A stretch of 64,000 nucleotides of DNA, from NCBI GenBank assembly GCA_902634935.1, contig CACPMF010000005.1:18596-82595 (forward strand). Reading direction: 5' to 3'. The notes under the pieces are model-generated. The model did not search any database, was not told the DNA's origin, and saw nothing but the letters and a program-made list of their open reading frames with translations. Made by a program: the position numbers and the translations under genes. Below are positions 16,705 to 22,700 of the stretch, one piece after another (position 1 is the first letter of the stretch; every line of letters begins with the position of its first letter). Source of the stretch: an uncultured Pelagibacteraceae bacterium (GTDB lineage: Bacteria > Pseudomonadota > Alphaproteobacteria > Pelagibacterales > Pelagibacteraceae).

Positions 16705-17381
16705 TAAATACCACCAAAATTTCTTTTTATTTTGTTATATTTTTCTAAAATTTTATAAAAATCATTCTGATTAAAATCAGGCCACAATTTTCTCTCAAAG
16801 AAAATCTCACTATATTGTGATTGCCACAATAAAAAGTTACTTAATCTATTAGTATTTCCAGTTCGTATTAAAATATCAGGATCAGGAATATTTTTGGTGT
16901 ATAAATTTTGACTAATTGTTTCTTGGTTTATTTTTATTTTTTTTTTGTTTATGCTTTTAAATGCTTTAAGGATTTCCTCCCTTGATCCATAATTAAGAGC
17001 AACATTAATTTGTAATAAAGTATTTTTTTTTGTTAACTTCTCAGTTTTTTTTAATTTTTTTTTTAAATTTCTAGGAATTTTTTTTAAGTTACCTATAATT
17101 TTTATCTTGATTTGTTTTTTAATTAAATTTTTTAATTCTTTATCTACATAACTTTCTAAAATTCTAAATAAAAAATTTATTTCTGTTTTTGGTCTCTTCC
17201 AGTTATCTGTCGAAAATGTATATAGTGTTAAAAATTTCAAGTTTTTTTTCAATGATGCATGAATTATTTTTTCAACGGTTTTAATCCCTTGAAGATGGCC
17301 ATGATTTCTTGTTTTATTTTTTTTTAATCCCCATCTACCGTTTCCATCCATTATAATGGCCACATGTTTGGGTGATGTCAT
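16704..17381 (-). CDS. uppS: Isoprenyl transferase (undecaprenyl diphosphate synthase)
   Basis: HVAIIMDGNGRWGLKK, GHLQGIKTVEKII, LTLYTFSTDNWKRP, LNYGSREEI, DPDILIRTGNTNRLSNFLLWQSQYSEIFF. Confidence 0.96.
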   Translation of the reverse strand: MTSPKHVAIIMDGNGRWGLKKNKTRNHGHLQGIKTVEKIIHASLKKNLKFLTLYTFSTDNWKRPKTEINFLFRILESYVDKELKNLIKKQIKIKIIGNLKKIPRNLKKKLKKTEKLTKKNTLLQINVALNYGSREEILKAFKSINKKKIKINQETISQNLYTKNIPDPDILIRTGNTNRLSNFLLWQSQYSEIFFERKLWPDFNQNDFYKILEKYNKIKRNFGGI

Positions 17382-17929
17382 ATAGTCATTATGTCTTTCT
17401 CTTTAGACATAACTTTTTCATCAATCATTTTTATATATTTATCCGTGTGGTCTTGAATAATTTTTTCATTTTTTTTGAGCTCATCCTCAGAAATTTCTTT
17501 ATTTTTTAGGTTTTTCTTTAATTCATCATTTCCGTCTCTTCGAATATTTCTAATTGATACCTTACATTTTTCACCCATAGATCTTACAATTTTTTTCATT
17601 TCGCCTCTTCTCTCCTCACTAAGATCTGGTACTGGTAGTCTTATCAATTGACCATCTATTTGAGGATTTAGGCCAAGTTCAGATTTTTTAATTGCTGCGT
17701 CTATTATATTAACGTTGTTTATATCCCAAACTTGAATATTAATAGTTCTAGGTTCAGGTGTTGTTATACTACCTAACTGATTTATAGGCATTTGTTGACC
17801 GTATACATCAACTCTAACTAAATCTAGCATACTAGCATTAGCTCTACCTGTTCTTAAAGATGAAAGTTCTTTTGCAAAAACGTCTAATGTTTTTGACATT
17901 TTTTCATCATACAAAGATGAATTAAACAT
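17378..17929 (-). CDS. frr: Ribosome recycling factor
   Basis: LRTGRANASMLDLVRVDVYG, PINQLGSITTPEPRTINIQVWD, LPVPDLSEERRGEMKKIVR. Confidence 0.97.
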   Translation of the reverse strand: MFNSSLYDEKMSKTLDVFAKELSSLRTGRANASMLDLVRVDVYGQQMPINQLGSITTPEPRTINIQVWDINNVNIIDAAIKKSELGLNPQIDGQLIRLPVPDLSEERRGEMKKIVRSMGEKCKVSIRNIRRDGNDELKKNLKNKEISEDELKKNEKIIQDHTDKYIKMIDEKVMSKEKDIMTI

Positions 17930-18780
17930 TATTCCCCAATTTTTATTCTTTTAAACTCTTTAATTTTAAGTTTTGGTATTTTTATTTCATTTAAAATATC
18001 TTTAACTTTTTTCTTTGGTTCCATTACCCAATCTTGTGTCATTAAACTATTTTCTTCTTTAAATTTATTAATTTTACCTAAACTTATTTTTTTTGCAATT
18101 TCCTCTGGTTTTCCTGAATTTTTTAACTCCTCTGCTATCAATTCTTGCTCTTTTTTAATAATATCCTCTTTTATCTCATCTGAGTTTAAGGCAATTGGAT
18201 TTGACGCAGCAATATGCATAGAAAGTTGTTTTCCAAAAGATTTTATTTGATCATTATCCTCTGAAGGTTCAATAGAAACAACAACACCTAATTTTGAAAC
18301 ATTGTCTTTAATGACGGAATGTTGATAAATAAAATTTTGTGCATTTGAATTTTCTATTGTTGATGTTTTTCCGATTGTAATTTTTTCACCTATTTTAGCA
18401 ATTAAAGCGACCAAATTTTCCTCAACTGTTTTTCCATTGGCCATAGCTGATTTATTTAATTTTTCTATATCTGAAGAACAATCATTATTTATTTCACTTA
18501 ATTCCTTAACAAAATTTAAAAAATTATCGTTTTTTGCAACAAAATCAGTTTCACAATTTACTTCAATTAGTGAAGTCTTTTGAGTGTCACCAGTAACAAC
18601 TATAACCCCTTCTTTTGCATCTCGTGACATTTTTTTTGATGCCTTTGCAATACCTTTAATCCTTAAGATTTCTGCAGCCTTATCCAGATTTCCTTTGGAC
18701 TCTTTTAATGCAGCATTGCAATCTTTAAAACCTGCACCTGTAGATTGTCTTAGTTTTTTAATATTTTCAATGTCACTCAT
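17929..18780 (-). CDS. tsf: Translation elongation factor Ts
   Basis: [47 protein letters not shown]. Confidence 0.97.
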
Positions 18781-18803: not shown

Positions 18804-19580
18804 TTAATTTATTATTATATTCTTATTTTCTTTTGTTGATTTCTCACTAATATCTATTTTTTTTTCTTCAGATTTAGTTTCTACTTCTTGTGGCAAATCC
18901 TTTTTCGCATTATTAATAGTTTCTTTTAATAAATTACAATAAAGATCAATTGATCTCCTTGCATCATCATTACCAGGAATTGGAAAGTCTATACCCTCTG
19001 GATCAGAATTTGTATCTAATATTGCTACAATTGGTATACTTAATTTAATAGATTCTTTAATTGCAAGTGATTCATAATTTGTGTCGATTATGAAAACAAG
19101 ATCAGGTACTTTTTTCATTTCTGCAATTCCACCTAAGGATCTTTGCAGTTTATCTCTTTGACCGCTCATCTTTAAAAGTTCTTTTTTTGTAAAGCCTCTA
19201 TTTTCAGATGATAGATCTAAATTTATCTTATTTAATTTTTTAATAGAATTTGAGATTGTGCCCCAGTTAGTTAACATTCCGCCAAGCCATCTATAATTTA
19301 CATAATATTGATTAGTATTTTTGGCTAATTCTGCGATAGCCTCTGAAGCTTGTTTCTTTGTTGATATAAAAAGTATTTTTCCACCATTTGAAATTGTTGA
19401 ATATACTTTTTCTAATGCAACATTAGTTAGTTCTAATGTTTGTGTTAAATCGATTATATGTATTGAGTCTCTTTTTCCAAAAATATATTTTTTCATTTTT
19501 GGATTCCATCTTAATGTTTTGTGGCCAAGATGAACGCCAGCTTCTAATAGTTGTTCAATTGTTAGGTTAGGTATTTTCAT
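18804..19580 (-). CDS. rpsB: 30S ribosomal protein S2
   Basis: [67 protein letters not shown]. Confidence 0.97.
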
Positions 19581-19583
19581 ATT

Positions 19584-19655
19584 TTTTCCCGGTTATGCCA
19601 CCACAATTATTGCCCCAAAGGGACCGGAGGTATAAAACCAAAAATTGTGTGCGTA
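19584..19655 (-). ncRNA. Candidate structured rpsB mRNA leader (pseudoknot occluding the ribosome-binding region)
   Basis: On the minus strand: CACACAAUU (+ 19643-19651) pairs with AAUUGUGGUG (+ 19599-19608); inner hairpin CCC-UUU-GGG; UCCGGU (+ 19623-19628) pairs with ACCGGG (+ 19588-19593), which lies 7 nt upstream of the rpsB ATG. Confidence 0.65.
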
Positions 19656-19705
19656 TTAATTTTAGAACTAAATACAATTTAAAAATATAATATCAAGAAT
19701 TTTTT

Positions 19706-22700
19706 TTACTCAATTATTAAATTTTCCTTGATTTTAAGCGAATTTAGCTGCTCGAAGTCAATTTTTCTTTTATCTTTTAAACCAAAAACAAGTTTATTTT
19801 GCTTATCCTGTATTTCAAATTTAATTGTTGTCTTGCCCTCTTTCTTTTTAAGATGTTTAATTTTTTCCAATTCTGATAAATCATTAAAATTAAGTTTTAA
19901 TAAATCAAATGGCTTGCTAATTACTTCTTTTAAAGTAATAATTTTTTTAACGTTAATTTTTTTTTGTATTTTTTTCTCATCAACATAATTTTTCATTAAA
20001 GTCAGCATTAGAGAATTTCCCTCTTTTAAAACTTCGCGATTAATTTCAAAAATGTCTGAAAAAACAAATAATTCAAAAACACTATGTAAGTCTGAAAATT
20101 TAATTATTGCATAAGATGTTCCTTTTTGTGTTTTTTTTTCTTGAGTTTTTAAGACTGTGCAAGCAATATTAGAGCTCAATAAATTTTCATCGTTTTGAAA
20201 ATTATCATAACTTACAATATTGTATTGATCGAATATAGATTCGTACTGATTTAATGGATGATCAGAAATATAAAAACCCAATGTTTCAAACTCTTTTGTA
20301 AGTCTGATATCAATATTCCAGTCTGCAGTATCTTCTAGAATGTTTTCTTCATTACTTAGTTTATCATCAAATAAATCAAATTGGTTAGCTTGTTTATTTT
20401 CAAAATTGTTTTTTGACTTTAATATAATATTTGGAATAGAATTATATATTGATTGTCTATTATTATTTAAATTATCAAATGCACCAGCTCTAACTAAACC
20501 CTCTAGTTGAAGTTTATTTATATCCTTTGGATCAACTCTTTTTACAAATTCAGATATGTTTTTATACTCTCCATTGTTTTGTCTTTCTTTAACTATATTT
20601 GAAATTGCTTCATAACCAACATTTTTTATAGCGCCAAGTGCATAAAAAAACTGTTTACCGTTTGATGTAAAATCTACAAAACATTTATTTATATCTGGTC
20701 TAATAATTTCAATATTTAGTCTTTTAAGTTCTTCATAAAATTCACTCAATTTTTTTTGATTAGATAGTTCCATTGACATTGATGCTGCAAAGAAGTCATG
20801 AGGATAATATGTTTTTAAATATGCAGTTTGATAGGCTATTACTGCATATGCTGCTGCGTGGCTTTTATTAAATCCATACTCAGCAAAAGGTTCTATTTTA
20901 AGAAAAATGCCTGCTGCAATGTCTTTACTAATACCATTTTTGAATGCTCCCTCAACAAATCTTTGTTTTTGTTTTTCAAGCTCTGCTCTTTTCTTTTTTC
21001 CCATTGCTCTTCTTAAAATATCTGCTTCACCAGCTGTAAAACCAGATAATGTTTGTGCAATTTGCATGACCTGTTCTTGATAAATTATTACTCCATAGGT
21101 TGGCTTTAAAATTTCTTCTAATTTTGGATGAAGATAATCAGGTTCTTTAAGTCCATGTTTGCAATCATTATAGATTGGTATATTGCTCATTGGCCCAGGT
21201 CTATATAGAGCAACTAAAGCAATAATATCTTCTAATCTATTAGGTTTCATATGCACTAAAGCATCTTTCATTCCGGAGCTTTCAAGTTGAAATAATCCGA
21301 CTGTTTTTCCACTAGATAATAAATCATATACTTTTTGATCCTCGTAATTAATTTTATCTATTCTAAAATTAGGATCTTTTTCATTTACTAGTTTTTGTGT
21401 TTTATCTATTACAGTTAAAGTTTTTAAACCTAAAAAATCAAATTTTACCAATCCAGCATTTTCGGCAGAATACATGTCAAATTGAGTCGAAGGTAATAAT
21501 AGGTCTGATCCAGAGTCTTTGTAAAGTGGTGTAGTTTCAGTTAATTTTTTATCTGCTATAACAACTCCCGCTGCATGCGTTGCGACGTTTCTATTAAGGC
21601 CTTCTAATTTTAATGATAATTCTATAAGCCTATTAACTCTCTTATCATCCTGTATTAATTTTTGAAGTCTAGGCTCAACATTTATGCATTCTTGTAAATT
21701 TGATGGTCTTGAGGGATCAAATGGAATCATTTTACAAATACCATCTATAAAACCATAGGGTAATCCTAATACCCTACCAACGTCTCTGATAACCATCCTA
21801 GCTTTTAATTTACCAAAAGTAATTATATGAGCTACACTGTTAGAATATTTTGTTGTTAGATATTCAAAGACTAAATCCCTTTTTTCCTCGCAAAAATCTA
21901 TATCAAAATCTGGCATTGAAATTCTATCTGGGTTTAAAAATCTCTCAAAAATCAAGTTAAATTTAATTGGATCAATATCTGTAATTGAAAGACACCATGC
22001 AACTAAAGAACCTGCTCCAGACCCTCTTCCTGGTCCAACTGGAATATTATTATTTTTTGCCCACTTAATATAATCAGAAACTATTAAAAAATAACCAGAG
22101 TAATTCATTTTGGTTATAATGCTAATTTCATGATCTAATCTTATTTTATATTTTTTATAATCATCATTAGTATTTAATTTGTTTTCATTTACGTTGAAAA
22201 TTTTTTCGAATTTTTCTTTAAGACCATTTAAAGATTCATTTATGAGAGCTTGGTTTGCATCAATGTCATTATCTGAAATATTTGGCAAAATTGGCTTTGA
22301 TGGTAATGGTCTATAATTGCATCTATAAGGAAGACTAAAATTATTTTCAAGTGCCTCTGGAAGATCTTTGAACAATTCTATCATTTCATCAGAACTTTTT
22401 AAGTAATGATTATTAGAAAGCCTATTTCTATTACCATCATTGACATATGTTTTTTGTCCAATACACATTAAAGCGTCATGAGCTTCATGCATTGATTTAT
22501 CAATGTAGAAAACTTCGTTAGAGGCAATGATTGGTAAATTCAAATTTTTAGATTGATCTAAATTATAACTTTCAAATTGTTTTTCATTAGCATCATTGTG
22601 TCTTTGTATTTCTATATAAAAATTGTCAGCAAAGTTTTCTGAAAAAGTTTTATAAATACTACTCAATTCCTCTAACAACCCTTTGTTAAAAAGATTTCCT

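Follow-up and report, generated by a model that had tools for sequence, protein, structure and literature searches.

The rpsB motif was discovered in 'Ca. P. ubique', where it lies between dnaE and rpsB. It was described as consisting of P1, P2, and P3 together with a pseudoknot that joins the junction J2-3 to a 3' extension, and was connected with the autoregulation by S2 that had been demonstrated in E. coli (Meyer et al., 2009; PMC2704228). In E. coli, according to a review (PMC10931766), S2, helped by S1, represses via the rpsB leader, and the ribosome-binding site (RBS) lies outside the S2 operator. In Magnetospirillum, the mRNA start was mapped 6–7 nt upstream of the rpsB motif, which agrees with a leader placed at the mRNA 5' end (PMC9549626).

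This study concerns the dnaE-rpsB intergenic region of a Pelagibacteraceae (SAR11) contig; the whole stretch of DNA analyzed, 64,000 nucleotides long, is referred to as the window. An original prediction, made from the sequence, had read the region as a pseudoknotted S2-type leader and had mentioned that structured rpsB leaders were proposed for SAR11. This was right, and the family is RF01815 (Meyer et al., 2009; PMC2704228). As motif and pseudoknot were published in 2009 from SAR11, the element in the window is not new. The only fresh detail is that the SAR11 pseudoknot appears to sit at the ribosome docking site, without a separate Shine-Dalgarno (SD) signal; in the literature, no description of this short pseudoknot-to-AUG spacing without an SD core was met for SAR11.

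Results

Locus and family assignment

On the minus strand of the window, the leader has dnaE upstream of it and is followed by rpsB, tsf, and frr. Sequence, strand, and position of the leader proved to be as originally given when the letters were checked. The dnaE-rpsB intergenic region spans 19581–19705 and reads CGCACACAAUUUUUGGUUUUAUACCUCCGGUCCCUUUGGGGCAAUAAUUGUGGUGGCAUAACCGGGAAAAAAUAUG directly before rpsB. The rpsB AUG starts at 19580 and the pseudoknot ends at 19588, which places the motif directly upstream of the gene. The GC content of the leader is 0.39 compared to 0.28 for the window, in agreement with the GC-rich island noticed on an AT-rich background. A sigma-70 scan returned one site (1.3 expected), and therefore no promoter is claimed; no terminator-like site was found before the rpsB AUG. 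A homologue of S1 is present in SAR11, close to full length, with a score below the curated cut-off of its family. The order rpsB-tsf-pyrH-frr is common in bacteria; in the window (17378–18780, minus strand) frr directly follows tsf with no pyrH between them. In one alphaproteobacterium (L169, 1327–1432), the motif does not directly precede rpsB but lies approximately 70 nt ahead of its start.

On sequence comparison, the minus-strand segment 19653–19588 is a conserved RNA leader of the known rpsB motif. RF01815 was matched end to end (window 19572–19653; 38.9 bits, E = 2.1e-6). The suggested check against the Rfam covariance models thus yielded a full-length match, at a score below the gathering score of 40, and a default Rfam 15 scan with that gathering score makes no RF01815 call at the region. 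With RF00127 (t44), no match up to E = 10 was obtained in 19500–19800, while the E. coli leader served as positive control (83.5 bits). Among 197 Pelagibacterales genomes, 107 match RF01815 at E ≤ 0.001 and none reaches 40 bits; at class level, the gathering score was reached in 73 of 289 genomes. The cut-off shuts out every sampled Pelagibacterales leader, yet the motif was first found in that group.

A leader model built from SAR11 sequences matched in 164 of the 197 genomes. Of the 33 non-matching genomes, 20 were checked, and in the assemblies of all 20 rpsB was undetectable, so the locus is absent from those assemblies; in the SAR11 genomes checked, the leader was found wherever rpsB was found. 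The pseudoknot of the window leader is identical to that of the 'Ca. P. ubique' motif (PMC2704228), at the same dnaE-rpsB junction. The features are summarized in Table 1.

Table 1. Features of the rpsB leader and the genes that follow it, in window coordinates
Feature	Position	Strand	Evidence or remark
P1 and all enclosed, 10 pairs: 5' strand 19653-19643 (A19650 bulged), 3' strand 19608-19599	19599..19653	-	RF01815 alignment, RNAalifold, covariation
P2, short hairpin GGU-UUUAU-ACC	19629..19639	-	RF01815 and SAR11 alignment A1
Pseudoknot 5' strand UCCGGU, junction J2-3	19623..19628	-	No change in the inner 5 nt across 37 SAR11 leaders; covaries elsewhere
P3, short hairpin CCC-UUUG-GGG	19613..19622	-	Sequence; CC/GG kept in SAR11 alignment A1
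Pseudoknot 3' strand ACCGGG, 7 nt before rpsB AUG	19588..19593	-	Inner 5 nt invariant in SAR11; mate covaries elsewhere
rpsB, ribosomal protein S2, regulated gene and presumed regulator	18804..19580	-	TIGR01011, 310.9 bits (cut-off 76.3)
tsf, elongation factor Ts, follows rpsB in the operon	17929..18780	-	TIGR00116, 248.8 bits

Structure and covariation of P1, P2, and P3

Support for the structure comes from comparison, since the tests on the single sequence were not significant and those on alignments were. The single-sequence fold gave z = 0.30, and in 559 of 2000 composition shuffles (28%) the enclosed region and the tail could form a duplex at least as strong as the pseudoknot. With 37 distinct SAR11 leaders, unguided RNAalifold returned the inner seven pairs of P1, five of them with double changes. 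For the full structure, 95.9% of cells were paired in these leaders. Changes on both sides were found at 9 pairs (shuffled mean 4.4) and in 47 cells (11.6), and 0 of 500 shuffles did as well. Sliding the 3' partners by 1–3 columns lowered the pairing to 33–53%.

In P1, 7 of the 10 pairs showed both-sided changes and 97% of cells were paired across the 37 leaders. Different relatives form the helix from CACACAAUU/AAUUGUG, CACAUAGUA/UACUAUG, CACAAGGCU/AGCUUUG, or CACGAAGAAA/UUUCUUCG. The original prediction had drawn a basal helix of 9 bp with a bulged G; the helix holds, with ten pairs, compensatory changes, and A19650 instead of G as the bulged nucleotide. In the Rfam register, the basal pairs are C19653-G19599, G19652-U19600, and C19651-G19601, with C-G replaced by A-U in three leaders and G-U by U-A in two. 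The register with a bulged G at the base of P1 was rejected, having no compensatory changes and pairs that break in 3 and 9 of the 37 leaders. P2 was paired in 88% of cells, with a UA/CG change at one pair (alignment A1), and reads GGC/GCC or GGG/CCC in other SAR11 genera. The enclosed CCC-UUU-GGG hairpin, P3, is present as predicted; most relatives keep only two CC/GG pairs, and in one leader (L035) a longer palindromic stem was found.

Pseudoknot

The pseudoknot comprises 6 bp, UCCGGU (19628–19623) with ACCGGG (19593–19588), and the complementarity pointed out originally is there, ending 7 nt before the AUG. Its inner five pairs are unchanged in 37 of 37 SAR11 leaders, so that covariation within SAR11 cannot test it. 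Covariation in both helices was to be looked for across SAR11, and its absence had been named beforehand as a reason to abandon the prediction. The prediction withstood this check: P1 covaries across SAR11 leaders, and the pseudoknot, invariant there, covaries only elsewhere in the Alphaproteobacteria.

In that class, an exact 5-mer complement of the pseudoknot 3' strand occurs in 71 of 73 distinct leaders, compared to 5.7 expected from shuffles; the count accepts the 5-mer at any place within the enclosed region. A script was used for this count because the model-fitted alignment misplaces J2-3 in many rows. Compensatory changes fall at two different pairs: CCGGU:ACCGG is replaced by CUGGU:ACCAG in three distinct leaders from different families of other Alphaproteobacteria, and by CCAGU:ACUGG in one distinct alphaproteobacterial leader. 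These changes strengthen the case for the pseudoknot. Altered pseudoknot pairs were seen in L126, L139, L130, L145, and L169, all from other Alphaproteobacteria. The ACCUCC in J2-3 was considered as an anti-SD mimic and dropped, as family f2 of SAR11 and some other genera lack CUCC.

Geometry at the start codon

In SAR11 family f1, to which the window belongs, ACCGG ends 7–10 nt (median 8) before the AUG, and an SD core follows it in 1 of 71 distinct leaders. Family f2 has ACCGGAG, with GGAG overlapping the pseudoknot, in four of four leaders. For other Alphaproteobacteria, two samples gave medians of 16 or 17 nt between ACCGG and AUG, with outliers in both directions. Nearly all of these leaders carry an SD-like core, mostly AAGGA, after the pseudoknot; the second of these core counts also takes in cores overlapping ACCGG. 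The first SD comparison used the top-scoring Rfam loci of the class, a choice biased toward SD sequences, as the 3' end of the model includes the SD. It was therefore redone with low-scoring loci and with loci located by means of the rpsB protein, and the result did not change. Given the short spacing without an SD core, the SAR11 leader has the appearance of a compact variant whose pseudoknot occupies the SD position.

SD tetramers upstream of ATG-started ORFs were found at 0.09 in the window (background 0.16; no enrichment), at 0.16 in another SAR11 genome (0.12; at background), and at 0.23 in family f2 (0.15; slightly above). They were strongly enriched in two other Alphaproteobacteria, one of 35% GC (0.49 and 0.66; background 0.17–0.18). 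In this survey, the first ATG was assigned as the start by rule; an SD signal is blurred by this but should not disappear. Little or no SD enrichment before ATG-started ORFs was seen in the window and L170–L184 (G012), unlike in the two other Alphaproteobacteria.

Discussion

Structure, conservation, family, and gene context of the leader are observed directly, and the family (RF01815) and the covarying helices support the original reading as an S2-type leader. We propose, with a probability of roughly 80%, that the rpsB-tsf mRNA of SAR11 begins with a leader that acts in cis as an autoregulatory RNA. The J2-3 strand would be presented by P1, with P2 and P3 as its caps, for pairing with the ACCGG that shortly precedes the rpsB start codon. 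S2, probably with S1, would bind when in excess over 16S rRNA and stabilize the pseudoknot, which would block 30S loading at rpsB and lower the synthesis of S2 and EF-Ts. S2 as the ligand and translational repression in SAR11 are suggested by analogy with E. coli, the only organism in which S2 autoregulation has been demonstrated. A block on the ribosome footprint itself is suggested by the geometry, which the predicted RBS occlusion fits.

How control would be exerted is answered more tentatively, at somewhat less than even odds. SAR11 may have lost the SD together with approximately 8 nt, leaving the 3' strand of the pseudoknot in its place. Control would then act by blocking the 30S footprint (in f2, with the SD of ACCGGAG overlapping the pseudoknot) and not upstream of a separate SD.

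The leader could instead be an S2-binding site with the pseudoknot as just one element of the recognition fold, and repression would then not proceed via occlusion of the start region. The review (PMC10931766) points this way for E. coli, where a small deletion lying far upstream is enough to abolish control and the RBS is reported to be no part of the operator. Blocking of the RBS itself may thus not be how control generally works. The putative E. coli pseudoknot, ending well upstream of the AUG, would also agree. The SAR11 pseudoknot, however, ends approximately 8 nt before the AUG, inside the 30S footprint, where it could hardly fail to hinder the ribosome sterically to some degree, and we lean against the recognition fold as the whole explanation, while regarding it as a real possibility.

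A constitutive structure, that is, an initiation-promoting or mRNA-protecting 5' element of a low-SD lineage and not a switch, would suit the presence of the leader alongside every rpsB found in the SAR11 genomes checked and the near absence of SD enrichment in SAR11 genes. It is improbable, because such a role needs no fold so specific and because the corresponding E. coli leader is an S2-controlled repressor site (PMC10931766). A chance fold of the GC-rich island, for which the single-sequence z score would speak, or a free sRNA, as the Rfam type field 'sRNA' of RF01815 would have it, is scarcely credible given the compensatory changes in P1 and the pseudoknot, the fixed position at the rpsB start, and the 3' end that a free sRNA would need before the AUG, where no terminator-like site was found.

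With S2 autoregulation as the preferred reading, only the compact geometry calls for an experiment. With the SAR11 form, it could be tested simply whether S2 control can work without an SD sequence. In addition, the exclusion of the leader by the RF01815 cut-off in all 197 sampled Pelagibacterales means that annotation pipelines that apply the gathering score will overlook it throughout a very abundant lineage.

Compared with RF01815, the window leader shares P1 with its bulged A, P2, J2-3, P3, the pseudoknot with the 3' extension, and the place before rpsB. It differs in length (82 nt, whereas the model has 132 positions), in its very short P2 and P3, already noted for P. ubique (PMC2704228), and in lacking an AGGA-type SD after the pseudoknot. 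With t44 (RF00127), the E. coli rpsB leader and S2 operator, it has in common the position upstream of rpsB-tsf and the helix base CACACACG..CGUGGAGG. Possible pseudoknot mates exist there as well, since the matching positions of t44 admit a reading as GGGGU paired with ACCCC, based on one sequence in which GGGGU occurs twice in the enclosed region. In contrast to the window leader, the E. coli leader forms a longer hairpin, its putative pseudoknot lies 24 nt before the AUG, and it has a separate SD, AGAGG.
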